A DNA stretch of 20,361 nt from a virus: IMG/VR virus record IMGVR_UViG_3300045135_001825, positions 1 to 20,361 of that record; one strand, 5' to 3'. Each line of letters opens with the position of its first letter. The stretch's first letter is position 1. The notes under the pieces were generated by a model, which searched no databases, was not told the DNA's origin, and worked only from the letters and a program-made list of their open reading frames with translations. Shown one piece after another: positions 4,813 through 16,025 of this stretch. Both the position numbers and the translations under genes were made by a program.

Positions 4813-6426
4813 TTAAATTTGGTCAATACCTTTGATATAAATCTTACCATAGAATTCTGGTCTTACCATTTTCTTAGCGTATCTAGTCATAACTCCTCTT
4901 CTTGGAGTGAAGTTAGCTGGGTCATACACTAAAGGTGTCATGATAAGTGGAACGTATGGAGCGTAAACAGCACCAGTTTCTAAGAAGTTAGACCCTTTGA
5001 AGCCCATTAGGATTTCGTTGTTAGTCTGATAAGGATTCTTATAAACTGTATATCTGTTTGCTAAAGAACCAACTGTTGATACACCAGCAGCGAATGAACT
5101 AGCATCTTTATCAGCGTTCACAGAGAATGCTGGAATAGATTCTAAAATAGTACATACGTCAGGTGATGCAACGATAAAGTTAGCTCCTCCTCTTAACGTT
5201 AATTGGTGAATCTTGTTAGAAACTTTGTTAAGTTTAGTACCAAGAGTCTGGAACCAAGTGTTCTTTTGGTAAGCAACACCAGAAGATGCAGCAGTCCAAC
5301 CATCAGAACCGTTGAATTCCTCACCGATTACTGCAGACCAGTATTCAGTTGTTAACGCGTTGCTTCTTAACATATCTAAGATTTCTAAGTCAATCTCTAA
5401 TGAGATGTACTCAGATAACATAGAAGTTAATTCAGCTTCAGCATCAATACTGTGGTAAGCATTAAGGTCTTGAGCCAATTCAGGTGTCCATACAGCCTTT
5501 AGTTTTCTAGTCTTAGCTACGATAGCCTCAGATTTCAACTCAAGGTCGATTTCTGGAATATCAAGAGTAGCACCATCAGAACCAGAAGTATTTAAGACTG
5601 GGTCTCTATCTTCAAAATCACCTCTATTCTCTGCAGAGTTTTCAGAAGCGTAGTGTACTTCAACAGCACCTACATCTTCACCACTACCTGAGAAGAAGAA
5701 TACATAGCTTGAACCATCTACTTTGTTGAATGCATTTAAGTTTTCATCAATTTCTGAACCAGAAGTTGTTAAGTAGAATCCTCTAATCGCATCGTTATCA
5801 GCAGTTGAATCAATGTTTGATTTTGTGATAGTTGCTTTAAAGATGTTACCAGCTTCAACTGAAGCAGTATATCTTGAATCATAGTTTAAGTCATCAAAAA
5901 CAGATGCAGTAGCAACAGTTACGTTTCCACTTACAACCATTTTTTGTTTGTCAGATAATGTATATCCGAATCTACCATCTCCATAAAGACCGTTTTGAGC
6001 AACGTTAGTAGAACCTAAGTCACTACCGTCACCACCAAATAATGAAGAACCAGAGTAGTTACTACCACCAAATTGTCCATTATTGTATTTAAAGTCTAAA
6101 TAGAAGATAAGTCCTGAAGGTAAGTTCATCGGTTGTACCGAAACGAATTCTTTAGATGAAATTTCACCGAAAATACGTCTTACCAAAGGAAGTGCAACAC
6201 CACTCCACTCTTCGTTACCAGAAGATGTAGAAGTAGCATTTGCTTCATCAAGCAATTGTTTTGCTTGGTTTTCAAGAAGAACCGACATCTGATGTTGGTC
6301 TCTCTCTTTTAAACCTTCAAGAAGTCCAGTTTGTTCCCACTTTCCTTTAAGTTGTCTTGTTTCTTCCAACATTACAGCTTGTGGGTTCTTTCCTTCCATT
6401 AGTTTAGATAAATCAAAATTACTCAT
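4813..6426 (-). CDS. 23: Major capsid protein, gp23-like
   Basis: A 537-residue homologue of T4 gp23 (521 residues), the hexamer-forming shell protein with an HK97-type fold. Diagnostic segments are LPLVRRIFGEISSKEFVSVQ (79-98) followed by PMNLPSGLIF, and AIVAKTRKLKAVWTPELAQD (301-320) followed by LNAYHSIDAEAEL, both close to T4 gp23. Residues 1-61 are helical and charged and should be the propeptide. LLDE at 58-61 followed by ANATSTS fits the T4 rule of hydrophobic-X-Glu and the T4 cleavage after residue 65, so maturation after E61 is predicted. Residues 115-290 are Gly/Ser-rich and variable, probably the surface insertion. A strong AAAGGAG lies 10 bases before the ATG. A terminator follows, as expected for the most abundant product. 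Confidence 0.93.
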   Translation of the reverse strand: MSNFDLSKLMEGKNPQAVMLEETRQLKGKWEQTGLLEGLKERDQHQMSVLLENQAKQLLDEANATSTSSGNEEWSGVALPLVRRIFGEISSKEFVSVQPMNLPSGLIFYLDFKYNNGQFGGSNYSGSSLFGGDGSDLGSTNVAQNGLYGDGRFGYTLSDKQKMVVSGNVTVATASVFDDLNYDSRYTASVEAGNIFKATITKSNIDSTADNDAIRGFYLTTSGSEIDENLNAFNKVDGSSYVFFFSGSGEDVGAVEVHYASENSAENRGDFEDRDPVLNTSGSDGATLDIPEIDLELKSEAIVAKTRKLKAVWTPELAQDLNAYHSIDAEAELTSMLSEYISLEIDLEILDMLRSNALTTEYWSAVIGEEFNGSDGWTAASSGVAYQKNTWFQTLGTKLNKVSNKIHQLTLRGGANFIVASPDVCTILESIPAFSVNADKDASSFAAGVSTVGSLANRYTVYKNPYQTNNEILMGFKGSNFLETGAVYAPYVPLIMTPLVYDPANFTPRRGVMTRYAKKMVRPEFYGKIYIKGIDQI

Positions 6427-7769: not shown

Positions 7770-8042
7770 CTATTTTCGGTTTCCTTTTTTTCTTTTCTTA
7801 GTATGTAAACGGATTGATGTATCACCACTTTCTATCTTATCAATCATAACTTGTCTCTGATTTTGTCTGATTGCTTGTTGTTTTTGTTTCCTCTTGAATG
7901 TGGTTGGTTTGACGTATTCTTGTCTTTTTCTTACTTCGAATAAGTGACCAGATTCACTTACTCTTCTTTTAAAAATTTTTAATGCTTTTTGTATGTCTCC
8001 TTTTCTTACTTGAACTGAGACTAATCTTGGGTGTTTACTCAT
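7770..8042 (-). CDS. rpsU: Ribosomal protein bS21 homologue
   Basis: A 90-residue very basic protein. Residues 7-63 match the bS21 family: VSVQVRKGDIQKALKIFKRR, then an EVRKRQEYVKPTT turn and an FKRKQKQQAIRQNQ helix. Compare E. coli [20 protein letters not shown] and [20 protein letters not shown]. bS21 sits on the 30S platform near the 3' end of 16S rRNA and the mRNA Shine-Dalgarno site. Residues 64-90 are an extra basic tail. Phage-encoded bS21 has been reported in several marine and freshwater phages, so this is a known but uncommon gene. It lies between virion genes, after the 663-residue protein and before a terminator. The ATG has AAAGGAG only one base upstream, which is unusually close. 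The sequence looks less like the short Bacteroidota type than like proteobacterial forms, but host assignment is not safe. Confidence 0.88.
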   Translation of the reverse strand: MSKHPRLVSVQVRKGDIQKALKIFKRRVSESGHLFEVRKRQEYVKPTTFKRKQKQQAIRQNQRQVMIDKIESGDTSIRLHTKKRKKGNRK

Positions 8043-8077: not shown

Positions 8078-10069
8078 CTACGAACCTTTTCCAGTCCCAC
8101 TTTTTCTTCCACCAGTATGTGTAGAAACATTTATAGGTTTCTTACCTTGACCTGCAGAAGATTTTCCTCCTCTGTTCGATTTGTTTTGTGCTGCTCTTTT
8201 TCTACGAGTTGCACTTTCTTTTTCTTTCTTACTCATTGATGCCGCTTTGGCTGCAGGTACACATTTAGCGTATCCTCTCTTCTTACCACTTGTACCACAT
8301 GGTGGGTGTTTACCGCTCTTATCTTTTTTACCAATATTTACCCACTTTGATTTGAACCAATTTCTTAAATCTTCATTTGTATTGATTTCAGATACTTGGA
8401 AAAGTTTTTCTTCTGCAGCTGCATTAGTTCTATAATCGTAGTGATTTCCGTTGATTTTAAAATCTTTTAAGGATTTAACTAAAAAATCTCTATATTTTTT
8501 CTTACCTAATTTTTTTTCAAGATTAGATAATATATCGTAGAACTTTATTTCTTTTTTACCGGCTTGTTTTTTAATTTTATTGATTTCTGCCTTAGTTTCA
8601 TCGATACCTTTTACTTTCTTTTTAACTATCATTGTGATGCCACCCAAATCCTTTGCCCACTTTTCAGCATCTTTCTTATCTTTGTAGGCTGCGGTTGTTA
8701 CTGGTTTCACTCCTTTTTTTGGTGCGTACAATACAATATATGCTTCGTTTAATCCTTCTTTAAAAACAATCTTACCAGTTCTATCTTCGATATGAATTCT
8801 TTCACCCTTATCCATATGTTTTCTGATAACACTATAGACAGCAGGTACTTCTTGTGGGTTCTTGATATTTTTCTGATAAATAACATCACCTCGTTTGATT
8901 ACCACCAATGTATATGGATTTGGTCTACCTTTAACCGCTCTCATTACATCACCTTTTGTGGCCTCGTTTACTGATTCATTAAATCCATAAACATATCCAC
9001 CCTTATGTAAAGTGTTTACAAACTTTGCTAAATCTTTTTTGTTTTTAAAAGTTTGGATATCAAAGAAATCACTACCATCTTTGTGTTTCTTCTTACCATC
9101 GTGGTAAGAGATTGTGTATTTTGCTGAACCAACTCTATCTTGTTGGTAGTATCTTTTTTTACCTTCGTTTACTGATTCACTAACTAAAGAATCTATATCA
9201 TCATGTACATCTTTCCACTTAGTAAATTTTTTATTACGAAGTGTACTATAAAGAGCTATTGAATATTTTTGTGAAGAGTTGTGGATAATTCTTTTTACAT
9301 AATCAACTGCACCAACATTAGGTTTTCCTTTTTGGATTGAATCAACTGCTGATTTTAATGCTTTGTAATTGTTGAATGCTCTTTCTTTGTTTCTATCTGA
9401 AATTACTTGAGTAATGTAATCTTTTGCTTTTTTCTCATCACCCTTAAACATATCTAAAACTTGTTGTGCACCTTTATCATTTTTCTTTAATGCTCTTTCA
9501 AAGTTTCCGATTTGTACTTTTGCTAAACCCTTAGAGTTGAAGTAATCTTTCTTATCAAATGTATCATATACTTTATCGAAAGTTCTATCATTAGATTTAA
9601 AGGGTTTTGATATCGTAGGTTTTCCTATTGCTTCATACGTTCTCTTCTTAGATTTAGATACGATTTTTAAATCTTTTGCTTTTGCCAAGATGTATTTTTC
9701 AAATCTACCATCTTTACCTAAGTTTACTTTGTATTCATCTCCATCTTTTCTAACAACATCACCAACAAATTTTTTCTTACTCTTAGGGTCTGTGTATTGA
9801 ACTCTTGTATTGTAGAATTTATCTTCGTTTACTGATTCTGCGAACTTCATTAGGTCTCTTACTCGTTTTACTAATGTACCTGCAGGAATACCATATGTAT
9901 CACTCATTACATCTTGAGTAAATTTGTTTGATAAAAAGTTAGATAGTTCTTTTTTAGTTGCAACACCACTACCAAAATCGTTTCTAGCAATCTTATCTAA
10001 TTCTTTTGCAGATAGTTTACCTTTAAAAAAATCTGTTAGTGCATCTGCTTTGTAGTTGTACTTTGGCAT
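8078..10069 (-). CDS. 663-aa modular basic protein with repeated SVNE sites; putative prohead polyprotein
   Basis: A long Lys-rich protein that looks like a chain of small domains. SVNE occurs at residues 79-82, 299-302 and 366-369, LNE at 440-442, and a weaker TNE at 564-566. The segments are: 1-82 helical (FFKGKLSAKELDKIARNDFG); 83-143 a small beta-domain (VGDVVRKDGDEYKVNLGKDG); 144-302 helical and basic; 303-369 and 370-442 small alpha-beta units; 443-490 a beta-alpha-beta unit (AYIVLYAPKKG); 491-566 helical; 567-663 a very basic C-terminus with WFKSKWVNIG, HPPCGTSGKKRGYAKC and a Gly/Lys/Arg-rich tail. The sites fit hydrophobic-X-Glu cleavage by the gp21-type protease encoded about 1.2 kb upstream. 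The start follows the previous stop by 6 bases with AAGGA. No known function; DNA-binding internal head proteins are the inference. Uncut multidomain virion protein is the alternative. Confidence 0.75.
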   Translation of the reverse strand: MPKYNYKADALTDFFKGKLSAKELDKIARNDFGSGVATKKELSNFLSNKFTQDVMSDTYGIPAGTLVKRVRDLMKFAESVNEDKFYNTRVQYTDPKSKKKFVGDVVRKDGDEYKVNLGKDGRFEKYILAKAKDLKIVSKSKKRTYEAIGKPTISKPFKSNDRTFDKVYDTFDKKDYFNSKGLAKVQIGNFERALKKNDKGAQQVLDMFKGDEKKAKDYITQVISDRNKERAFNNYKALKSAVDSIQKGKPNVGAVDYVKRIIHNSSQKYSIALYSTLRNKKFTKWKDVHDDIDSLVSESVNEGKKRYYQQDRVGSAKYTISYHDGKKKHKDGSDFFDIQTFKNKKDLAKFVNTLHKGGYVYGFNESVNEATKGDVMRAVKGRPNPYTLVVIKRGDVIYQKNIKNPQEVPAVYSVIRKHMDKGERIHIEDRTGKIVFKEGLNEAYIVLYAPKKGVKPVTTAAYKDKKDAEKWAKDLGGITMIVKKKVKGIDETKAEINKIKKQAGKKEIKFYDILSNLEKKLGKKKYRDFLVKSLKDFKINGNHYDYRTNAAAEEKLFQVSEINTNEDLRNWFKSKWVNIGKKDKSGKHPPCGTSGKKRGYAKCVPAAKAASMSKKEKESATRRKRAAQNKSNRGGKSSAGQGKKPINVSTHTGGRKSGTGKGS

Positions 10070-10075
10070 GGCTGG

Positions 10076-10834
10076 TTATCCTTTACATTTTCTCCAACCA
10101 CCACCTTTTCCTTTGTAGTTCTTTGCTGCCCATCCATTTGCGTACGCAGAAGGGTAAACATCAAACTTCTTTTTAGCAGCAGCCTTTGATGCCGCCCACT
10201 TACCAGGGTCTGTTGGACAATTCTTTTCACTCATTAAAGCCTTTTCTACTTTAAGACCAAATTCGTATAGTTTAGTTTCTTCTTCGTTTAAATCTGTTAC
10301 TTCTTTGATTGTAGTAATAATATTACCATTCGGAGTTCTGTTAGAAACTTTTACTGATTCTTCGTTTACTGAATCACCACATCCACCTGGAGTAGTTCCA
10401 CCACATCCACATCCACAATCTCCTTTAGATTCTTTGATACCTAATCTTGATTTCATTTCATCTTCAGTAATTTCACCAATTTTGTAGTATCTTGAAAGAA
10501 TGTTACCCATATCCTCATATAGACCGTGCATTCTTTGGTCTAAGTTTCTTGCCTCTTTGGCAACTTTATCAAATTGTGAACCCAATTTAGTTAGTTCACT
10601 CATATTTCTTTTTACTGTGTGTTTATCAAACCAATCATCAGATTCTCTTAGAGCAAGTTCTCTTGCTGCTTCTGTAATACCACCTAAAGTTTCAGCAACC
10701 TCAATGATATCAGATTTTCTATCCATTGATTCTTGATATTTGTTATATGTAGAAACGATTTCTAAGAAGTGTCTTTTTACTTCGTTAGATAATCCTCTAT
10801 CTTCTGATTCTTTAAGTATATCTGTTAGTTTCAT
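10076..10834 (-). CDS. Prohead-associated protein with Cys-rich linker and basic C-terminal module
   Basis: A 252-residue protein. It begins MKLTDILKE, which resembles the T4 capsid targeting leader MKTYQEFIAE and ends in a possible L-K-E cleavage site. Residues 18-135 are helical (DDWFDKHTVKRNMSELTKLG). A Gly/Cys linker follows at 139-153 (DCGCGCGGTTPGGCG), then SVNE at 155-158 and LNE at 182-184. The C-terminus (206-252) is a basic module, CPTDPGKWAASKAAAKKKFD then VYPSAYANGWAAKNYKGKGGGWRKC, with two Cys at its ends; I recall similar modules in uncharacterised viral proteins but give no family name. The start has TAAGGAG 5 bases upstream, and that TAA is the stop codon of the preceding gene. 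Function unknown; packaged internal protein is inferred. Confidence 0.75.
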   Translation of the reverse strand: MKLTDILKESEDRGLSNEVKRHFLEIVSTYNKYQESMDRKSDIIEVAETLGGITEAARELALRESDDWFDKHTVKRNMSELTKLGSQFDKVAKEARNLDQRMHGLYEDMGNILSRYYKIGEITEDEMKSRLGIKESKGDCGCGCGGTTPGGCGDSVNEESVKVSNRTPNGNIITTIKEVTDLNEEETKLYEFGLKVEKALMSEKNCPTDPGKWAASKAAAKKKFDVYPSAYANGWAAKNYKGKGGGWRKCKG

Positions 10835-10843
10835 TTTCTCTCC

Positions 10844-11317
10844 TTACAGTAATTTTAATTCTTTATCTTCGTAGGTATCTGCGTAATACCATTTTTTATC
10901 TTTTTCATTATAAAGATAAACGTATTCAGCACCACCTTGATTACCTGCATCTTTAATGTAGTTAAGTACTTTATCAAGTTTACCTTTCATATACTTACCA
11001 CCTTTTTCACCTCTATCTCTACCGTAGAATGTAGTTTGACCTTTTACTCTATTATCAAATGAGTGTCCTTTACCACCATCCATTTTAGGTTCAAGAGATG
11101 AGATACCATTACCACCATCAATTTTTAAAAGTTGTTTTACTTTACCACCACCATAATGTTTTTTGGCAACTGCACCAACACCTTTTGGATATCCATCGTA
11201 ATGTACATATGTAGAAAGGATATTTCCACTTCTATCGATTACACCAATTTGTGAACGAGTTGATTCGTTTATACTACCCAATGCCTGTAATCCTACTATA
11301 CCAGTTAATTTAATCAT
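10844..11317 (-). CDS. Putative internal head protein with short cleavable leader (157 aa)
   Basis: A 157-residue basic protein directly after the protease gene (ATGA overlap). It opens with MIKLTGIVGLQALGSINE, an apolar leader ending in I-N-E at 16-18, which fits a gp21-type cleavage site. The rest (19-157) is a single compact domain: STRSQIGVIDRSGNILSTYV, HYDGYPKGVGAVAKKHYGGG, then a TTFYGRDRGEKGG loop and a C-terminal AEYVYLYNEKDKKWYYADTY strand pair. I recall similar SQIGVID...HYDGYP domains as hypothetical proteins of large phages, function unknown. Leader and location suggest a protein carried into the prohead. Confidence 0.75.
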   Translation of the reverse strand: MIKLTGIVGLQALGSINESTRSQIGVIDRSGNILSTYVHYDGYPKGVGAVAKKHYGGGKVKQLLKIDGGNGISSLEPKMDGGKGHSFDNRVKGQTTFYGRDRGEKGGKYMKGKLDKVLNYIKDAGNQGGAEYVYLYNEKDKKWYYADTYEDKELKLL

Positions 11318-11895
11318 GATAATTCCGTTATTATTTCTCTCATTAAATCTTGAGCTTTACAATATTCATCACAAACCTCAGAAATAACTTGTTTAGATTC
11401 ATTTACAGGTGTCATAAATGCACCATGTGTAGATGGATTTGATACAAAATCCCATCCAAGTAACTCGAAATCTTCTCCTACTCTCACTTTACCATCACCA
11501 ATTGGTTCTACTGAACCCATACCTCTTGATGATATACCGAGAAGAATATTTGCTTTTAATAATTCTTTTAATATGTTACCACTTGGTGTAGGTAGGATTT
11601 CTACTGTACCAACCAAATCATCACCTTCCCAATGGATTTCTCTTACGTTATGTGAAACGTTTTTTAAGTTTATTACAGAAGAATCTGGATGGTCTAATTC
11701 ACCCAACGCTCTTCTTTCTTTAATGAGAGTTTCATACTTCTTAGCCTCTCTCATTAGAATTTCTTTTGGATACACTCTTTCGTTTTGGTTAGGTGCTTCA
11801 GCTCTTTGTAGGATACCTTTTACGATAGTTCTACCTTCAGAATCTTCGTTTACTCTACCCTCAAATAATCTTGTTTCTATTAATAAATTTTTCAT
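11314..11895 (-). CDS. 21: Prohead maturation serine protease, gp21-like
   Basis: A homologue of T4 gp21, the prohead protease with the herpesvirus-assemblin fold. With the ATG at 11893-11895 it has 193 residues. Catalytic candidates are H69 in GELDHPDSS, S122 or S123 in GISSRGMGSV, and D149 in LLGWDFVSNPS. A TTG 12 bases further upstream is in frame, but the ATG is preferred: it forms TAATG with the upstream stop and has GGGGAG just before it. V-N-E occurs at 15-17 (LFEGRVNEDSEG) and again at 164-166 (MTPVNESKQ), flanking the catalytic core and fitting the self-cleavage known for T4 gp21. The C-terminal tail after E166 is helical with two Cys. In T4 the enzyme cuts core and shell proteins after hydrophobic-X-Glu and then destroys itself; the same is inferred here. 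Confidence 0.92.
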   Translation of the reverse strand: MKNLLIETRLFEGRVNEDSEGRTIVKGILQRAEAPNQNERVYPKEILMREAKKYETLIKERRALGELDHPDSSVINLKNVSHNVREIHWEGDDLVGTVEILPTPSGNILKELLKANILLGISSRGMGSVEPIGDGKVRVGEDFELLGWDFVSNPSTHGAFMTPVNESKQVISEVCDEYCKAQDLMREIITELS

Positions 11896-12083
11896 TACGC
11901 TCCCCAACTTTTACGTTTCTTAAATAAATCAAAGAAAATCGCAGATACTTCTTGACGGATAATTTTTCTTATTACATCTTTATCCGATTCATCGAGTTCC
12001 TCTTTAACTAAAAAATGGTTTACACCATATTTAAAATCTCTGATTTCCTCGTTGATAATATCTACCAACTCTCCTTTTTTCAT
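11895..12083 (-). CDS. Small helical protein upstream of the protease (62 aa)
   Basis: A 62-residue protein starting MKKGELVDIINEEIRDFKYG, with I-N-E at 10-12, followed by a helix DVIRKIIRQEVSAIFFDLFK and a basic end. The stop overlaps the protease ATG as TAATG, so the two are translated together. A weak AAAAGG precedes the start. In T4 the small core genes 67 and 68 lie between portal and protease; this gene holds a similar place. No sequence match to them could be claimed by eye. Confidence 0.65.
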   Translation of the reverse strand: MKKGELVDIINEEIRDFKYGVNHFLVKEELDESDKDVIRKIIRQEVSAIFFDLFKKRKSWGA

Positions 12084-12092
12084 AATTACCTT

Positions 12093-12476
12093 TTACGATT
12101 TTCTTTTTAAAATCTTATGTACATCTTGAATTCTCTCAATAGCATTTTCTAAATGGTCCATTGCTTCAAGAACACCATCTTCTTGTAAACTTTCAAGTGC
12201 TTCTGAAAAATCAATTTTTACTACACCTGCAAGGTCTTTCAATGTTTTTTCTTCTCTCTTGAATTTACCTTCGTTTACTTCAACTTCATTTTTGGCACCT
12301 CTTGATTTCCAAGTTTTTTCAATTTTATTGAAAAATGCTTTTTTCTCATCATCAGACATAGATGGAATTGATTTTCCAGCTTTTTCTAATGCCTTTTTGA
12401 AAAACTTTTGGTATTCAGATTCTTCTCTGAGTACATCGGCAATTATTTCTTTTAATCTATTTTTTGTTATTTTCAT
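12093..12476 (-). CDS. Small core-type protein with VNE site (127 aa)
   Basis: A 127-residue Lys/Glu-rich helical protein. It begins MKITKNRLKEIIADVLREES, a leader of the type shared by several genes in this cluster. V-N-E occurs at 67-69 (EVEVNEGKFKRE), halfway along, so cleavage would give a basic N-terminal piece and an acidic C-terminal piece (VVKIDFSEALESLQEDGVLE). The start overlaps the upstream stop as ATGA. Position between portal and protease matches T4 prohead core genes 67/68. Function inferred only. Confidence 0.65.
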   Translation of the reverse strand: MKITKNRLKEIIADVLREESEYQKFFKKALEKAGKSIPSMSDDEKKAFFNKIEKTWKSRGAKNEVEVNEGKFKREEKTLKDLAGVVKIDFSEALESLQEDGVLEAMDHLENAIERIQDVHKILKRKS

Positions 12477-12928
12477 TGGTCTAACTCCTTAATACTGTTA
12501 GCGATGTTAATTAATCTTTCTTTTACATTATAAATATGACGATTAGTTCTCTTCCAATATGTATCTTTAGAAAGTTCATTCATCGATTTTATTTTGTTAT
12601 ACCAATTGAAAAACTTTTCAACCTCTGCCAATTGATATTTCAATTCTTTTAGACCTACTGCTAACTTCTGATTAGGAGAACGAGTTTCATCATTCTTTAA
12701 TTCTAACCATCTATTAACTGGTCTTTTTACTTTTGCCTCACCAACGATAGTATAATCATCACCTGCTTTTTTAGCAATATCTTTTCTTCTATCCTTTTTC
12801 CCTTTACCAGAAAAAGCATGAGGAGTTTGATACACATCTACATTTGCAGTTGTGGTAACTTCATCTAACTCTTCTTCTACTTCTTTGACGAGTTCTTCAA
12901 TATATGTTCTTAATTTACTTTCTAACAT
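12473..12928 (-). CDS. Core-type protein between portal and protease (151 aa)
   Basis: A 151-residue protein. Residues 1-23 form an acidic helix, MLESKLRTYIEELVKEVEEE, ending in LDEVTTTANVDVYQTPHAFS; the LDE there (21-23) is also a hydrophobic-X-Glu site. A basic stretch follows (GKGKKDRRKDIAKKAG), then helices to the end (KLAVGLKELKYQLAEVEKFF). The gene overlaps the upstream one by 14 bases and the downstream one by ATGA. I recall TT.NV..YQTPFAF-like segments from other marine phage structural proteins, but with no known function. Confidence 0.6.
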   Translation of the reverse strand: MLESKLRTYIEELVKEVEEELDEVTTTANVDVYQTPHAFSGKGKKDRRKDIAKKAGDDYTIVGEAKVKRPVNRWLELKNDETRSPNQKLAVGLKELKYQLAEVEKFFNWYNKIKSMNELSKDTYWKRTNRHIYNVKERLINIANSIKELDQ

Positions 12929-15617: not shown

Positions 15618-16025
15618 TTACCAAGCTCTACAACTCCAATACCTTGCCTTATGTCTTGGGCCAGGATTATCACAGTTGTGTCTTGCTCTGAATGACTTCC
15701 TTCTTTGAGGGTCACTCTTTTTTATTTTCATTGTTTTTCCTTTTGCTGAAGAACCACCATGTCCAAAGTTAACTTTTACTACGTTACCTTGTGGATTCTT
15801 TACATATACTTTGAATTTTTTAACATCACCTCTCATTGGTTTACCAAGTTTAACTTTTCTTCCTTGATATTCTGCTTCGTTTACTTCTGGTTTGTATGCT
15901 TTTAAAAATTCAACAATCTCTTTGTAATCTTGTTCGTTCTCGCAATCGTATTCTTGTATCTCATCAGATTGTTCTCTGATTGTTTTTACAAAATTCGAAT
16001 AAAGTGCCTTTGTTATTTCATCCAT
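15618..16025 (-). CDS. Small pro-protein: acidic leader, VNE site, basic Cys/His module (135 aa)
   Basis: A 135-residue protein in two halves. Residues 1-50 are acidic and helical (TIREQSDEIQEYDCENEQDY) and end in PEVNE (V-N-E at 48-50). Residues 51-135 are strongly basic: GRKVKLGKPMRGDVKKFKVY, VNFGHGGSSAKGKTMKIKKS, then RRKSFRARHNCDNPGPRHKA and RYWSCRAW. The last part has C118, H125 and C132 beside H116, which could bind a metal. I recall this basic module as recurrent in marine phage genomes without a known function. Cleavage at E50 would release a DNA-binding-like mature peptide. The gene lies between terminase and portal, with TAAGGAG 6 bases before its ATG. Confidence 0.75.
   Translation of the reverse strand: MDEITKALYSNFVKTIREQSDEIQEYDCENEQDYKEIVEFLKAYKPEVNEAEYQGRKVKLGKPMRGDVKKFKVYVKNPQGNVVKVNFGHGGSSAKGKTMKIKKSDPQRRKSFRARHNCDNPGPRHKARYWSCRAW

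Follow-up and report, generated by a model that had tools for sequence, protein, structure and literature searches.

A candidate polyprotein of exchangeable basic head modules in an uncultured T4-like phage

The window analyzed here, a 20,361-bp stretch that makes up the whole of its IMG/VR record, carries a 663-aa gene that we read, with a probability of roughly 0.78, as encoding a modular polyprotein of basic internal head proteins, which would be cut in the prohead by the phage's S77 protease, leaving modules that stay with the DNA and are probably ejected, and in which the DNA of the joints would let the modules recombine. Relatives carry the domains of this polyprotein in other orders, which makes it resemble an interchangeable set of proteins carried inside the head. 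The source of the window is an uncultured virus of bacteria, a T4-like myovirus, and its minus strand carries part of the head and neck cluster, in which the 663-aa gene lies between the S77 prohead protease and the scaffold gene:

17657-16065, minus strand: TerL
15618-16025, minus strand: 135-aa gene adjoining TerL
15591-13846, minus strand: portal, with several small genes between it and the S77 protease
12473-12928, minus strand: conserved 151-aa gene ("gene A"), upstream of the protease
11314-11907, minus strand: prohead protease, Peptidase_S77, gp21 family (PF03420, Pfam E 1.4e-26)
10844-11317, minus strand: region of a 157-aa gene, which is followed by a 252-aa gene, both between the S77 protease and the 663-aa ORF
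8078-10069, minus strand: modular head polyprotein gene, 663 aa (ORF and AlphaFold2 model)
7770-8042, minus strand: small ribosomal-protein-S21-like gene, between the polyprotein and the scaffold
Minus strand, between the S21-like gene and the major capsid protein: scaffold-like protein, strongly acidic
4813-6426, minus strand: major capsid protein (MCP), with the inferred cleavage site LLDE↓A (arrows mark inferred or proposed cuts throughout)

Except for the protease and the S21-like gene, these names are presumptive, taken from gene order, similarity and general knowledge of T4. When capsid proteins are compared, Microcystis phage Mel-JY01 and the immuto phages of Flavobacterium come closest among annotated isolates, with 50-54% identity. 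An S21-like ORF is found near the equivalent position in Mel-JY01, where it is annotated RpsU, and a similar ORF in LR756508. The region of the 157-aa gene was unmatched in blastn comparisons with two relatives (L001 and L071; relatives are given by locus number), and it may therefore be variable too.

The 663-aa protein and its joints

The 663-residue protein that the sequence-only reading had placed at 8078-10069 stands as an open reading frame, and its strand is the minus strand (10069 to 8078), the plus strand there being full of stops. The three SVNE and one LNE that were claimed for it are found at exactly the residues given, with SVNE ending at 82, 302 and 369 and GLNE at 442. The motif [SG]-[VIL]-N-E thus occurs four times against a mean expectation of 0.045, four copies were reached in 0 of 5000 composition-matched shuffles, and we reject chance as the source of these copies; the looser [LIVFM]xE showed no significant enrichment in this protein alone (10 vs 6.5, P = 0.09). 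All four sites also have a second x-x-E with its E exactly four residues upstream (FAE↓SVNE, VSE↓SVNE, FNE↓SVNE and FKE↓GLNE), giving the joint pattern x-x-E↓[SG]-phi-N-E↓. Additional, weaker joints are probable at IDE 491 and at VSE 561, which the AlphaFold2 model places close to the end of a helix, and residues 146-150 (EAIGK) are a decayed joint, the close relative L012 having ESVNE there. The features of the protein are as follows:

9824-10069, minus strand: module 1, residues 1-82, recurring inside other polyproteins (e.g., L015 317-392, L025 526-601)
9824-9838, minus strand: linker ESVNE 78-82, GAATCAGTAAACGAA; L001 and L126 cease to match at DNA level at residue 78.7
9632-9823, minus strand: module 2, residues 83-146, SH3-like small beta-barrel with five strands in the model
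9620-9634, minus strand: decayed joint EAIGK 146-150, GAAGCAATAGGAAAA; L012 carries GAATCAGTAAACGAA there and diverges beyond
9164-9622, minus strand: module 3, residues 150-302, all-helical, pLDDT mostly >90, with homologues in other contexts
9164-9178, minus strand: linker ESVNE 298-302, coil in the model
8963-9163, minus strand: module 4, residues 303-369, in a non-redundant cluster of n = 46
8963-8977, minus strand: linker ESVNE 365-369, GAATCAGTAAACGAG
8744-8962, minus strand: module 5, residues 370-442, relatives few and distant (30-40% identity)
8744-8758, minus strand: linker EGLNE 438-442, GAAGGATTAAACGAA; DNA homology to L001 and L071 resumes at residue 440.3
8597-8743, minus strand: module 6, residues 443-491, ending IDE; relatives run from IDE into differing modules (GKKRY..., SVNE...)
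8387-8596, minus strand: module 7, residues 492-561, ending VSE; mostly the final module in relatives' polyproteins
8081-8386, minus strand: module 8, residues 562-663, basic C-terminal domain (PHROG 23735, E 1.3e-16)
10361-10375, minus strand: copy of the linker DNA inside the adjacent 252-aa gene, encoding DSVNE and differing from the 15-mer at one position

Using a 97-row alignment of relatives, assembled as colinear chains, AlphaFold2 predicts separate folded domains arranged as beads on a string (mean pLDDT 76, pTM 0.41), with coil at 81-87, 298-305, 362-372, 430-441 and 486-491. The four named [SG][VIL]NE sites are in predicted coil between folded domains, with none buried in helices or strands. 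The earlier proposal that these sites mark domain boundaries is also borne out by shuffled homologues, which identify the module edges independently of inspection by eye, and its estimate of five or six peptides is probably too low, since eight modules are visible. An obvious short T4-like capsid-targeting sequence is absent from the 663-aa protein, where the first phi-x-E occurs only at 76-78; some relatives have a short N-terminal candidate (MEEMLINE↓).

Shuffling of modules among relatives and the DNA of the joint

Our viral-contig search in IMG/VR identified 54 loci, and further scans brought the set to 199. These relatives have modules in common, not whole proteins: each of the segments 1-82, 83-148, 150-302, 303-369, 443-491, 492-561 and 558-663 turns up on its own, whether in a different order, within another gene or as a gene by itself. 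For example, the module 4 cluster has 20 different left and 22 different right neighbours, and the counterpart of module 8 is a standalone gene of about 115-135 aa in many relatives. The catalogue of 143 non-redundant linker ORFs resolves into 430 modules, 167 families and 113 distinct architectures, and the motif E[SG][VIL]NE is present 307 times in 1307 ORFs, compared with 5 times in shuffles. Strict homology junctions lie within 5 aa of a linker for 44% of C-ends and 23% of N-ends, vs 8% of random positions in both cases; about one quarter to one third of them are >10 aa away from any linker-like site, and these come partly from BLAST ends inside diverged modules.

The same edges are present at the nucleotide level, with breakpoints sitting inside otherwise 75-94% identical DNA. 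L012, 94% identical over 6.3 kb, ceases to match at residue 146.7, where its ESVNE is decayed in the window, and the DNA homology of L001, L126 and L071 breaks or resumes at residues 78.7, 84.0, 301-305, 369.3, 440.3 and 491.7. Shuffling extends beyond the polyprotein gene, with two other conserved small head-cluster genes acting as acceptors of extra modules in relatives: the constant ends of gene A are separated by 27-35 aa in 11 distinct relatives and by 104-765 aa, mostly containing linkers, in 29 others, and the 135-aa gene adjoining TerL keeps a constant C-terminus with up to about 850 aa upstream of it. Neither the most mobile module nor a second polyprotein (L261) had homologues in the search of isolated phages. 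The cultured Flavobacterium phage immuto (immuto_2-6A, NC_055915.1) encodes an 841-aa protein with the linker (KNV73_gp079, L200:1111-3636), in which the joints are MNE↓SVNE↓G (GAATCAGTAAATGAA) and LKE↓SLNE. On the minus strand of L223, a 549-aa ORF has ESVNE joints that connect stretches which are partly acidic and contain Cys, in contrast to the basic, Cys-poor modules of the other ORFs.

Analysis of the DNA at the joints demonstrated that 145 of 216 ESVNE joints (67%) are encoded by GAATCAGTAAACGAA, where about 5% would be predicted from the codon usage of these ORFs. The conserved stretch has sharp edges that coincide with the joint, and its wobble positions are conserved above flanking wobbles. 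All distinct exact copies of the 15-mer in the first loci (140/140) are in frame and on the coding strand, and in a DNA-only 16-mer scan of viral contigs, which does not depend on module homology, 111 of 115 matches were in frame, with at least two linkers in 57 of 80 ORFs. Codon homogeneity at conserved residues inside single module families is 0.63-0.90, and linkers across unrelated modules are therefore as uniform as, or more uniform than, truly homologous positions. Such near-fixation of the linker DNA suggests a second role for these 15 bp, as a recombination seam. Shared descent, rather than selection at the DNA level, could explain this uniformity. Either homologous recombination at the joint or a joint inherited with moving modules would give uniform linker DNA; direct selection on the joint DNA is possible, and recombination at the joint is the cause that we propose. 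We consider the chances evenly balanced that this is a dual-use joint, i.e., a DNA repeat encoding both a prohead-protease site and a recombination seam, which would give phages a cassette system for assembling and exchanging ejected effector modules, both in single polyproteins and in core genes that are otherwise conserved.

Candidate protease sites and head cargo

The prohead protease of T4, gp21, cleaves after L/I-X-E, and gp22, gp67 and gp68 are substrates that it breaks into several pieces each (PMC9026906). Judged by sequence, the joints match this gp21 rule, in agreement with the site type first suggested for them, and they resemble the cleavage site of the phage's own MCP (LLDE↓A), which is inferred from its position in the capsid protein; LLDE↓[AS] is present in 28/28 relatives fetched, and phages further removed show LISE↓A, IVSE↓A and LLKE↓A. 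Across 12 module types, 172 of 202 distinct module starts come directly after phi-x-E, against a background of 24% for phi; A, G or S occupies P1' in 69% (20% background), and 64% of linkers have the tandem phi-x-E-[SG]-phi-N-E. Joints other than VNE keep phi (P3) and E (P1) and leave P2 free (G, D, T, Y, S, K and others). Two features of an S77/gp21 substrate are found together, phi-x-E sites before a small residue and an S77 protease in the same phage, and we propose this S77 enzyme for processing of the 663-aa polyprotein.

The small basic domains described in the sequence-only reading are recovered across the catalogue, where middle modules have a median length of 76 aa, pI 9.7 (93% above 9) and 0.07% Cys, compared with pI 5.7 (29% above 9) for control chunks and 0.49% Cys for control ORFs. 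Linker genes sit in the T4 core-gene neighbourhood, around the S77 prohead protease: counted where flanking markers are present, 52 linker ORFs lie between the post-portal gene and S77, 36 between S77 and S21 and 11 adjoining TerL, with most inside the TerL-portal-protease-S21 interval. Pfam and PHROGs searches with the whole 663-aa protein and 104 module representatives gave almost no functional clue, with PHROG matches all of unknown function, no sequence homology to T4 internal proteins (IPs), and no recognised effector, peptidase or anti-restriction domain among the representatives. Foldseek comparisons with PDB and BFVD yielded no significant match; module 2 alone showed a resemblance, to small SH3-like barrels (NdhS and KOW-type, with prob 1.00 but an E of about 0.1). 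In Mel-JY01 the polyprotein slot holds a 388-aa protein (L201:11398-12564); a resemblance of this protein to ADP-ribosyltransferases, seen by eye, was unsupported by Pfam, PHROGs and PDB sequences, and we do not use it as evidence.

These observations would fit a course in which the chain of small basic internal head proteins is incorporated into the prohead core. The phage's S77 protease would then cleave the joints after phi-x-E, probably using both sites where the joint is the tandem phi-x-E↓S-V-N-E↓. Single-domain proteins would be left in the capsid alongside the DNA, and the released modules would probably be ejected into the host. Through recombination at the nearly fixed 15-bp joint DNA, modules would be gained, lost or reordered, and because nearly every module is bounded by the same joint they would be exchangeable without harm to the domains or to their release.

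The gene neighbourhood and the multiple cutting of T4 gp22, gp67 and gp68 (PMC9026906) would also suit a core or scaffold protein whose protease-cut fragments, as with those T4 proteins, are structural filler degraded or lost at maturation, with no host function. We think this unlikely, as the modules are folded, basic, diverse and rapidly exchanged, unlike acidic, conserved scaffolds (that of the window is strongly acidic), and the internal proteins of T-even phages, too, differ from one phage to another and inhibit the type IV restriction of the host (PMC12373910). The chain might instead stay uncut and enter both the head and the host in one piece, with its modules on flexible ESVNE hinges, in the manner of polyvalent proteins (Iyer et al. 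2017), which the passages of PMC5512222 cited here describe as multi-domain, mosaic and predicted to be packaged, some of them (N4 vRNAP, ArdC, TraC1) working as full-length chains; cutting of the window's polyprotein is, for its part, read from sequence patterns. However, a hinge need not be phi-x-E↓[AGS], and a plain flexible linker is not expected to keep this pattern, whereas here phi and E are fixed while P2 varies, the joints are like the inferred MCP site, and an S77 prohead protease is encoded close by. We therefore give an uncut chain a low probability.

The near-invariance and sharp bounds of the 15-mer, and its conserved wobbles, are what would be seen if the linker were primarily a DNA element (a recombination site) with ESVNE as an incidental translation that has no role in proteolysis. 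This is very improbable given that every distinct exact copy in the first loci is in frame on the coding strand and that joints with other DNA retain phi-x-E. The data being metagenomic contigs, an assembly artefact or chance similarity has also to be considered, but with hundreds of linker copies on independent contigs, and the linker present in the isolate genome of immuto, we regard the likelihood of this as negligible.

Relation to known head proteins

The T4 internal proteins are ejected head proteins, of which Ip1, Ip2 and Ip3 inhibit distinct type IV restriction enzymes, and phages related to T4 carry other internal proteins (PMC9026906, PMC12373910). IPI, IPII, IPIII and Alt of Tequatrovirus are the internal head proteins of a T4-like phage, as the modules would be here; the T4 IPs are small and basic, and IPs and Alt are cut by gp21 after L/I-X-E, ejected with the DNA and variable between phages (PMC9026906, PMC12373910). 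The modules share the small size and basic charge of this family; the 663-aa protein lacks its N-terminal targeting sequence ending L/I-x-E, and the searches found no IP homology. T4 IPs and Alt are separate genes, each with its own N-terminal targeting sequence that is cut once (Alt also at the C-terminus), whereas the window's modules share one chain with protease-type sites as joints. By analogy, the modules may be ejected and may inhibit type IV restriction as T4 IPs do, and a function in anti-defence or takeover would be conceivable. T4 gp22, gp67 and gp68 share the neighbourhood and are cut into several fragments, but these are mostly lost and are not modular domains, unlike the folded basic modules shuffled between phages here.

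Polyvalent proteins (e.g., P1 DarA and DdrB) are, going by the passages of PMC5512222 cited here, the nearest conceptual relative: they are multi-domain, mosaic, predicted to be virion-packaged and injected, and compared by their authors to polyproteins. The mosaic chain is common to both, but polyvalent proteins have large enzymatic domains, with release proposed via embedded peptidase domains, and those passages describe neither a repeated prohead-protease joint nor fixed joint DNA; none of the known effector, peptidase or anti-restriction domains was recognised among the 104 module representatives. The phiKZ-like ejection proteins (SPN3US gp53, gp54 and others) are likewise head proteins, and an S77-like prohead protease matures them by cutting after A-X-E (PMC10052503), but cleavage there removes propeptides, sometimes in pieces, and modular exchange is not described in the literature consulted. 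The cutting rule, the protease family and the internal-protein concept are already known; in the open-licence literature searched, we found no described phage system of shuffled internal-protein polyproteins with protease-site joints.

Cargo of the T4 type, known as separate genes, appears here chained into polyproteins. With joints that fit the protease rule and hardly differ in their DNA, exchange of domains and their release would use one element. If this is true, a simple rule (cut at phi-x-E↓[AGS], read ESVNE) predicts many unknown, probably ejected proteins in marine and freshwater T4-like phages, the pool of modules would be a place to seek anti-defence proteins, and the arrangement would represent a natural design for packing several proteins into a capsid from one gene.
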